A stretch of DNA of 64,000 nucleotides, taken from Apiospora phragmitis. Lineage: Eukaryota > Ascomycota > Sordariomycetes > Amphisphaeriales > Apiosporaceae. The translations under genes were made by a program, and so were the position numbers. The DNA lies in the NCBI GenBank assembly GCA_038363925.1, contig JAQQWL010000013.1, positions 2,542,001-2,606,000 on the forward strand, read 5' to 3'. Of the stretch, positions 3,409 through 46,108 are shown in pieces. The notes beneath the pieces were generated by a model, which saw nothing but the letters and a program-made list of their open reading frames with translations, did not search any database and was not told the origin of the DNA. Each line of letters starts with the position of its first letter. The first letter of the stretch is position 1.

Positions 3409-4709
3409 ATGTCGGCCCCCGACTCGCGCTTCCAAGCGCAGAACAAGACGACGCAGCAGCGCGTTCTCGGACCAGACCGTCGGCCTCGTCAAGCTCTCTG
3501 ACTTCCGCAAGCGGCGCGCCGAGGTCCTCGAGCAGCAGGAGCGCGAAGTGCGCGAGGCTGCCGTCGCAGCCAACGCCGGCGGCGGCAGTGGCGGTGGCAT
3601 CGACCGCTCGCAGACCGGCACGCCCGACCCCAACGCGACGAACAGCGACGCCTCCAACAGCAACGAAAAGCCAAAAGAACGGCAAAAGAAGCCCCTCGGC
3701 AACAAGAAGCGGAAAACAGGCGGCGCGAAGTCCAAGCTCAGCTTTGGGGACGACGAGGACGAAGAAGAGGCGGGCGGCGAAGGCAGCACCAGCAAAGAAG
3801 ACAAGGCAACCGGAAGCGGCGACAAGACGGCAGCAGCAGCAACGACAGCCAAGAAGTCCAAGTTCAAAGCCAACGCGAACGTGTCGATCGTGCCCCGCGC
3901 CGTGACCAAGTCGGCGCTGCAGCGCGAGGCCGCCGAGCGCGACGCCCTGCGCCGCGAGTTCCTGCTGAAGCAGGAGGCCGTCAAGGCGACCGAAATCGCA
4001 ATCCCCTTCGTCTTCTACGACGGCACGAACCTGCCCGGCGGTGTCGCGCGCGTCAAGAAGGGCGACTTCGCCTGGATCTTCCTGGACAAGAGCCGCAAGG
4101 TCGGGGCCGAGCTGGGCGTCGGGGAGAAGACCAATGCCCGGCGGGAGTGGGCGCGCATAGGGGTCGACGACTTGATGCTGGTCCGGGGTGGTCTCATCAT
4201 ACCACATGTGAGTGTACAAAAGAAAAGAAAACTTATTTTCTTCTACGGAATTTTCTATGAAGAAATTATAGATACCTCCAGCTACCCGATGGAGCAATTA
4301 CTCGGGCGGTGGTACTTAATCCCATAGTGTGTCTATACTAACATGTCTCCAGCATTACGAGTTCCTCTATTTCATAATGAACAAGACTCTAGGACCCAAC
4401 AACCAGATTTTGTTCGAGTATAGCGCCGAGCCGCCAGTCTTGAGCAACGCGAGCGCTACCGCCGACGGCGGTGCTGCGGAACCCGTTTCCACGTCCGACA
4501 AGCGTGCCGCCAAGGTTCCCCTGCCTGATATAGACACCCTCGAGGGAGCTTCGGACGACCCGACCTTCACCAAGGTCGTCGATCGACGTTGGTATGAGCG
4601 AAATAAGCATATATACCCTGCCAGCACTTGGCAGGACTTTGACCCGGAGCACGACTACCAGAGCCAGATACGCAAGGACCCGCGCAGTGGTAACACGTTC
4701 TTCTATTGA
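3409..4709 (+). CDS. XAP5/FAM50 family nuclear protein
   Basis: Start ATG at 3409 lies in a strong fungal context (ATCACCATGTCG). Exon 1 runs to 4207; the 145-nt intron 4208-4352 has GTGAGT, an ACTAAC branch site and CCAG; exon 2 ends with the stop at 4707-4709. Recognisable XAP5 blocks are the N-terminal QTVGLVKLSDFRKRRAEVLEQ, a Lys/Glu-rich low-complexity middle, FYDGTNLPGGVARVKKGDF, the PHHYEF segment spanning the splice junction, and a C-terminal DRRWYERNKHIYPASTW block. XAP5 proteins are conserved nuclear proteins; plant and human relatives act in gene expression. One break is visible: the ATG frame reads MSAPDSRFQAQ.. and ends in a stop at about 3500, whereas the conserved block continues in the next frame, so a single extra base lies near 3460-3475. 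Because the gene is otherwise intact, an assembly error is as likely as a mutation. Confidence 0.88.
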
Positions 4710-45928: not shown

Positions 45929-46080
45929 GCGGACATAGCTCAGTTGGGAGAGCGCCAGACTGAAGCGAGAACTTCGGGAAACATCAATCTGGAGGTCGTG
46001 TGGTAAGCAATCCATTGTTTACACCTGGATGTCAGAGTCAGTTAGCTAACAAGACTCTAGTTCAATCCACACTGGCCGCA
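45929..46080 (+). tRNA. tRNA-Phe(GAA) with two insertions
   Basis: Reads as a complete cloverleaf: acceptor GCGGACA (45929-45935) with TGGCCGC (46073-46079, one A-G mismatch) and discriminator A at 46080; D arm GCTC-AGTTGGGA-GAGC; anticodon stem CCAGA/TCTGG with loop CT-GAA-G-A; variable loop AGGTC; T arm GTGTG-TTCAATC-CACAC. The first insertion, 45966-45986 (21 nt), lies after the base 3' of the anticodon, the normal nuclear tRNA intron site, and contains CTTC able to pair with GAAG, the usual anticodon-intron pairing. The second, 46003-46060, is at the T-stem/T-loop border and is described separately. The A box (TAGCTCAGTTGG) is intact and AGTTCAATCC serves as B box. An oligo-T terminator follows. 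Confidence 0.85.
46003..46060 (+). other. 58-nt GT-AG insertion in the tRNA T arm, spliceosomal-intron-like
   Basis: Begins GTAAGC directly after the 5' half of the T stem (GTGTG), contains GCTAAC at 46045-46050 as a branch-site match, and ends CTCTAG directly before TTCAATC. Removing exactly GT..AG gives a perfect T arm. Both ends match the introns of protein genes in this window. It could instead be a random insertion in a dead tRNA gene. Confidence 0.65.
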
Positions 46081-46092
46081 GTCCTTACTAAC

Positions 46093-46108
46093 TTTTCTTC
46101 CTTTTTTT
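46093..46108 (+). terminator. RNA polymerase III terminator of tRNA-Phe
   Basis: TTTT at 46093-46096 and a run of seven T at 46102-46108 on the sense strand, 13-28 bases after the tRNA end. Confidence 0.75.

Follow-up and report, generated by a model that had tools for sequence, protein, structure and literature searches.

Predicted spliceosomal introns in the T arm of nuclear tRNA genes of the fungus Apiospora phragmitis

Introduction

Splicing of nuclear tRNAs and splicing of mRNAs are regarded as two unconnected processes, each with its own enzymes. A tRNA-Phe(GAA) gene of Apiospora phragmitis raises the question of whether a single nuclear tRNA gene may need both. The gene occupies positions 45929-46080 on the forward strand of a 64,000-nucleotide stretch of DNA (hereafter the window; C13:2542001-2606000, where C and a number denote a contig) in a genome of 52,670,108 bases (52.7 Mb) in 19 contigs. 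In addition to a 21-nt intron at position 37/38, it contains a 58-nt insert at position 53/54, for which a first-pass annotation had proposed a spliceosomal origin. Here we describe the gene and its paralogs, report inserts at the same site in other tRNA genes, and weigh the routes by which they might be removed. In our judgement, this is probably a working nuclear tRNA gene whose T-arm insert is a spliceosomal intron of the GT-AG type, and we place the spliceosome first among the candidate machines for all seven genes found.

Results

Structure of the tRNA-Phe gene

The sole Rfam match in the window at the gathering threshold was a tRNA at the above positions on the forward strand (34.1 bits; gathering score 29), the alignment of which contains large insertions in both the anticodon loop and the T loop. 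Excision of the 58-nt insert yields a T stem of GTGTG/CACAC and a loop of TTCAATC, as the first-pass annotation had described, and the boundaries it had assigned to the three exons, the 37/38 intron and the GT-AG insert (Table 1) proved exact; the 53/54 junction permits a slide of one base. With introns of up to 120 nt allowed, ARAGORN found no tRNA in the unspliced gene and one tRNA after excision. The program labelled the excised gene Val(gac) because it placed the 37/38 intron differently. The acceptor stem has an A5.G68 mismatch (positions 45933 and 46075), which by reading is common to all seven tRNA-Phe genes found and therefore does not represent damage to the window copy. The 37/38 intron is likewise present in all seven (by reading).

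Table 1 Features of the tRNA-Phe(GAA) gene and of the mRNA intron used for comparison, in window coordinates
Feature	Position	Strand	Basis
tRNA-Phe(GAA) exon 1, positions 1-37	45929..45965	+	same sequence as four tRNA-Phe genes without T-arm insert (by reading)
Presumed A box (TAGCTCAGTTGG), Pol III internal promoter	45936..45947	+	sequence
Canonical 37/38 intron, 21 nt; intron TTC complementary to anticodon GAA	45966..45986	+	sequence
Exon 2, positions 38-53, with T-stem strand GTGTG at its end	45987..46002	+	sequence, Rfam, paralog comparison
T-arm insert, 58 nt, GTAAGC...CTAAC...TAG, proposed spliceosomal intron at 53/54	46003..46060	+	sequence, paralogs, excision test
Insert hairpin 1 (GTAAGCAA/TTGTTTAC) over the 5' splice site; kept in 3/3 Phe inserts	46003..46022	+	predicted fold
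Insert hairpin 2 (GAGTC/GACTC) enclosing the branch-site motif	46035..46057	+	predicted fold
Branch-site motif CTAAC, 10 nt from insert end	46046..46050	+	sequence
Presumed B box, rebuilt: AG of the insert + TTCAATCCA	46059..46069	+	sequence
Exon 3, positions 54-73	46061..46080	+	same sequence as four genes without insert (by reading)
First T run 3' of the gene (TTTT), Pol III terminator-like	46093..46096	+	sequence
T7 run, after the first T run	46102..46108	+	sequence
Ordinary mRNA intron of XAP5, GTGAGT...TACTAAC...CCAG, yardstick	4208..4352	+	same window, 145 nt

Homologous inserts among the tRNA-Phe paralogs

A genome pattern search allowing up to three mismatches recovered seven tRNA-Phe genes, three of which contain a T-arm insert (the window copy on C13, and copies on C10 and C4), the remaining four having the 37/38 intron only (C3, C5, C9 and C11). 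A 72-base query comprising the window insert and its edges (14 exon bases included) matched the other two Phe inserts with 85% and 78% identity, and had no further match in the genome at E values up to 10. The first-pass annotation had regarded the combination of no spliced reads, many normal tRNA-Phe genes elsewhere and a lack of conservation of the insertion as the mark of a dead copy; four normal genes do exist, whereas the insertion is shared by homology among three of the seven paralogs.

Seven exon positions differ between the C13 and C4 genes. Six of these make up three compensated base pairs (6-67, 7-66 and 49-65), each joining sequence 5' of the insert to sequence 3' of it, and the seventh is the purine at position 57 (A or G). 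The compensated pairs of the C4 gene are absent from the other six tRNA-Phe genes and are the strongest sign in the sequence that this gene has been kept as a tRNA while bearing its insert. Strictly, what they show is a tRNA fold of the RNA on either side of the insert; from this we infer removal of the insert, because a T loop enlarged by 65 nt would not be expected in a working tRNA. Less weight falls on the window copy, whose exons are the same as those of the plain genes and could have been kept intact by gene conversion. The Phe inserts themselves have diverged (78-85% identity), yet their splice signals and the surrounding cloverleaf remain exact.

By eye, the flanks of the three insert-bearing Phe genes are unlike each other and those of the four plain genes are alike, the latter sharing an upstream stretch (around AGYGGCC) that is seemingly missing from the former.

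Inserts at the same position in other tRNA genes

A fixed-gap pattern with a branch-site motif and acceptor directly before the B box gave three genome matches, two of which were tRNA-Arg(UCG). The more permissive pattern CTAACN{3,30}YAGTTCRANYC had 15 matches in the genome, including seven tRNA genes: Phe (three), Arg(UCG) (two), Pro(UGG) and Pro(AGG). A donor-based pattern with no branch site required, GGTADGN{30,60}YAGTTCRANYC, had 29 matches and recovered the same seven tRNA genes, and GTGAG donors gave three matches in the genome, none of which was a tRNA after excision. Raw counts compared with those of reversed-pattern controls (15 vs 20 for the branch-site pattern, 29 vs 19 for the donor pattern and 3 vs 6 for GTGAG) indicate no clear enrichment, so the case rests on the cloverleaf around each match. 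Of 32 distinct G|GT..YAG|TTCRANYC candidates submitted to ARAGORN, seven were recognised as tRNAs after excision and none unspliced, the other 25 serving as control. All seven inserts are at position 53/54, in four kinds of tRNA, which puts the number of such genes in the genome at seven or more. Together with the homology of the Phe inserts, this recurrence makes the window insert more than a chance feature. The non-Phe genes were found through patterns requiring part of the signals, and these searches are blind to inserts without such signals, to longer ones without CTAAC and to other positions. A tRNA family search of the genome, in which 63 of 1715 candidates were scored, did not have the window gene among the matches listed.

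A T-arm insert is present in two of three Arg(UCG) genes, both with exons identical to those of the plain third copy (by reading), and in one of six Pro(AGG) genes, the other five being plain with the same mature sequence (by reading); ARAGORN named these five Ala or Glu owing to intron register, and their AGG anticodon was assigned by reading. The insert-bearing Pro(UGG) gene (C6:2113762, reverse strand) has tandem U.U mismatches in its acceptor stem, at 5-68 and 6-67. A genome search with up to three mismatches to its 32-nt 5' part, which a differently built gene would escape, found no second gene; this gene may be decaying, or may be the sole gene of its kind. A separate 37/38 intron is present in six of the seven insert-bearing genes, the exception being Pro(UGG).

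Three further loci were noted. A tRNA-like gene at C4:2638372-2638501 (reverse strand), with a T5 run downstream, has a 58-nt GTAAGT...TTCTAAT...AATAG stretch inside its anticodon loop; removal between GT and AG gives a cloverleaf with anticodon UUC, and a 37/38 cut gives an equally good cloverleaf with GUA. At C5:3561549 (reverse strand), a B box and what may be the 3' end of a tRNA (TTCGAATCCGGGTCGTTGCA) come after CTAAC...CACAG, with no recognisable 5' part. Contig C19 (224,601 bases) is dense in tRNA matches and is presumably the mitochondrial genome, which would be large for a fungus.

Splice signals and relatedness of the inserts

Insert lengths range from 54 to 65 nt (Phe 58, 58 and 65; Arg 57 and 57; Pro(UGG) 57; Pro(AGG) 54). 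The donors are GTAAGC in the three Phe inserts, GTATGT in the two Arg inserts and GTAAGT in the two Pro inserts, and the acceptors are TAG in Phe and CAG in the rest. A GT donor and an AG acceptor stand at the boundaries set by the cloverleaf (with a 1-nt slide) in all seven; YAG was required by the patterns, and GT was not required by the branch-site pattern. CTAAC ends 9-13 nt before the end of every insert. Its presence in the last 30 nt separates the seven tRNA genes (7/7) from the non-tRNA matches of the donor search (1/22), the one exception being mRNA-intron-like.

In length, donor, branch site and acceptor the inserts agree with mRNA introns of fungi. Intron signals counted de novo in the window were too weak to serve as a reference (CTAAC with 11 donor-like words vs 7 in a control stretch), and the XAP5 intron (Table 1) was therefore taken as yardstick. 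In that intron, which is longer than the tRNA inserts, CTAAC also ends 10 nt before the intron end. The XAP5 protein implies a second, upstream junction; a model with two introns of 30 nt or more matched nothing, and only the intron listed was confirmed. The consensus given for fungal U3 introns is GTRWGT, RCTRAC and YAG, and the branch lies on average 15 nt from the acceptor (PMC5832005).

When inserts of different tRNA kinds were compared (one per kind), all six scores fell within 1.3 SD of shuffled sequences, which implies separate gains or divergence beyond recognition. An introner-like mobile family was considered and rejected, since the Phe insert matches only the three tRNA-Phe genes and has no near-identical copies across the genome. 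Without mismatch, the pattern of the donor hairpin is confined to the Phe inserts; when up to two mismatches were tolerated, it had 55 matches, compared with 46 for the reversed pattern, which is background. A search for relatives elsewhere, using the tRNA-Phe T stem and donor against viral and genome contig collections, returned 2 + 6 loci, none of the eight being a tRNA gene by eye.

Predicted promoter and terminator

The A and B boxes of the window gene were assigned by consensus. With G53 in front of the GT of the insert and AG at its end, the B box is AGTTCRANYC and would stay usable. A break deeper in the B box would destroy it, which may account for the use of one site in four kinds of tRNA. 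The distance between A box and B box is 102-128 bases in the seven genes. An internal TTTT occurs in none of the seven, and a run of four or more T begins 5-22 nt 3' of every gene; the background for such runs was 696 of 8910 windows of 30 nt, drawn from loci of the same genome, some of which overlap. All seven combine a cloverleaf on excision with no internal terminator and a downstream T run, as predicted of a functional Pol III tRNA gene, although Pro(UGG) has its two U.U mismatches.

RNA folding and the bulge-helix-bulge search

A bulge-helix-bulge motif (BHB), with a 4-bp central helix between two 3-nt bulges, was found at none of the seven junctions, whether sought strictly or relaxed and in both slides, in a search run without a positive control. 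The Phe inserts are structured (z = -1.9 for C13, -3.2 for C10 and -4.9 for C4), and the Arg and Pro inserts are without notable structure (z = -0.2 to +0.6). All three Phe inserts have an 8-bp hairpin covering the donor (GTAAGCAA/TTGYTTAC), with one G-C to G-U change among them. Folded alone, they leave the 5' splice site with an unpaired probability of 0.00-0.02, and the Arg and Pro donors, also folded alone, are partly open (mean unpaired probability 0.34-0.63). Yeast introns are described as depleted of structure around canonical splice sites (PMC12350175). The Phe donor hairpin suggests, as far as the folding model goes, either an obstacle to plain spliceosomal splicing of the Phe inserts or regulated splicing. 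Minimum-energy folds of the full precursors and of mature tRNA-Phe, that of the plain gene included, were not cloverleafs and are not used as evidence.

Discussion

A proposed spliceosomal route and its alternatives

The reading that we prefer draws on the anatomy of the window gene, the seven genes of four kinds, the homology of the Phe inserts, the compensated stems of the C4 gene, the three splice signals, the BHB result and the downstream T runs. Extended from one gene to seven at a single position, the earlier proposal of a second intron with spliceosomal signals, in the T arm, has gained considerable support; its processing route is read from sequence. What follows is inferred, from transcription and removal of the insert to the machine responsible and the order of the two splicings. 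Pol III would use the A box together with a B box kept usable despite the insert, since the AG of the acceptor provides the G ahead of TTCRANYC. The spliceosome would join position 53 to position 54 by way of GUAAGC, CUAAC and UAG, and the 37/38 intron would be left to the ordinary tRNA endonuclease and ligase. The window gene would then yield the same mature tRNA-Phe as the four plain genes. Two considerations lead us to place the spliceosome first for all seven genes: each copy retains all three signals, and fission-yeast U6 provides a precedent.

The genes might alternatively be dead copies. In that case mRNA-type introns, or DNA of another sort, were inserted into tRNA genes that are now silent or yield no tRNA, and the exons appear sound through recency or through gene conversion from plain copies. 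Plain genes exist for three of the four kinds (Phe 4/7, Arg(UCG) 1/3 and Pro(AGG) 5/6), so the insert-bearing ones need not work; the exons of the window copy and of both Arg copies are identical to plain ones, and Pro(UGG) has its two U.U mismatches. For eukaryotic tRNA genes, short insertions in the D or T arm are moreover described as affecting, for the most part, a single gene among many synonymous ones, and such genes as presumed pseudogenes (PMC4090602; Yoshihisa 2014). Decay would not, however, be expected to produce the three compensated pairs of the C4 gene, found in none of the other six, nor to leave signals and cloverleaf exact while the inserts diverged, and random insertion would not be expected to strike one position in four kinds of tRNA with donor, branch site and acceptor each time. 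We consider this explanation unlikely.

A mixture of routes, in which the Arg and Pro inserts are spliceosomal and the Phe inserts are removed otherwise, or only when some condition opens hairpin 1, would accommodate the conserved donor-covering hairpin, which is restricted to the Phe inserts. It appears improbable to us, given that GTAAGC, CTAAC and TAG are kept in all three Phe inserts, with the length class and position of the others. Most improbable is that the inserts, like certain introns of archaea and Cyanidioschyzon merolae, are removed by the tRNA endonuclease from a non-canonical position and have splice-like signals only incidentally: 53/54 is among the archaeal non-canonical intron positions, red algae and nucleomorphs have extra tRNA introns (PMC4090602) and the Phe inserts are structured, but neither form of the BHB search, itself run without a positive control, found the motif at any junction, the Arg and Pro inserts are without notable structure, and CTAAC and YAG would have no role.

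Under the preferred reading of spliceosomal introns in working tRNA genes, we lean towards a history in which such introns entered repeatedly at one tolerated site, 53/54, where the acceptor AG also serves within the B box. Some genes of four tRNA kinds, three of which also have a 37/38 intron, would then need the spliceosome, and the tRNA-like gene at C4:2638372-2638501 may carry such an intron in its anticodon loop, where splicing would set the anticodon. This suggests that some tRNAs may have to pass the spliceosome before they work. If this is true, genes needing both routes would make the supply of tRNA dependent on the spliceosome, and a short Pol III transcript whose last exon measures 20 nt plus trailer would be an acceptable substrate for splicing. 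The genes would also provide a naturally occurring series of introns gained at a single site of a structured RNA, from which the limits of such gain can be read: promoter kept and fold kept. Genes of this sort would tend to escape annotation, and ARAGORN, run with anticodon-loop introns allowed, found none of the seven in unspliced form; for tRNAscan-SE 2.0, a search for non-canonical introns is described for archaeal candidates (PMC8450103).

Comparison with known systems

Among the best-ranked matches of full-text literature searches, in a collection that covers few subscription journals, none was listed that describes a spliceosomal intron in a nuclear tRNA gene. The canonical 37/38 introns of fungal nuclear tRNA genes, also present in six of the seven genes described here, differ from the T-arm inserts in position and have no splice-site consensus.

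Extra tRNA introns are known from archaea, where 53/54 is one of several sites (PMC4090602), and from C. merolae and nucleomorphs; T-arm introns occur in nucleomorphs, and their removal, by an unknown route, was shown in Guillardia theta (PMC4090602; PMC3978253). Genes with two introns, including the tRNA-Phe of G. theta, are also described (PMC4090602). The archaeal and C. merolae introns are BHB-directed and those of G. theta are 3-24 nt long, whereas the inserts reported here are 54-65 nt long, with GT, CTAAC and YAG and with no BHB found.

Close likenesses also exist to introns in other structured RNAs of fungi. The spliceosomal introns of fungal U3 snoRNA genes share with the present inserts the donor, branch-site and acceptor consensus, a clustered position and the coexistence of paralogs with and without intron in one genome (PMC5832005), the difference being that the host is not a tRNA.

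Removal of the U6 intron is done by the spliceosome, and multiple insertions in U6 were reportedly described by Canzler in 2016. The U6 snRNA of fission yeast, a Pol III transcript, has an mRNA-type intron and is spliced (PMC10484740). In Schizosaccharomyces pombe and other fungi, as here, an mRNA-type intron resides in a short structured Pol III RNA; unlike here, U6 is not a tRNA and has no second intron of the tRNA-endonuclease type. What is new in the genes of A. phragmitis, on the reading that we consider probable, is that spliceosomal introns, already known from other structured RNAs, would now extend to tRNA.
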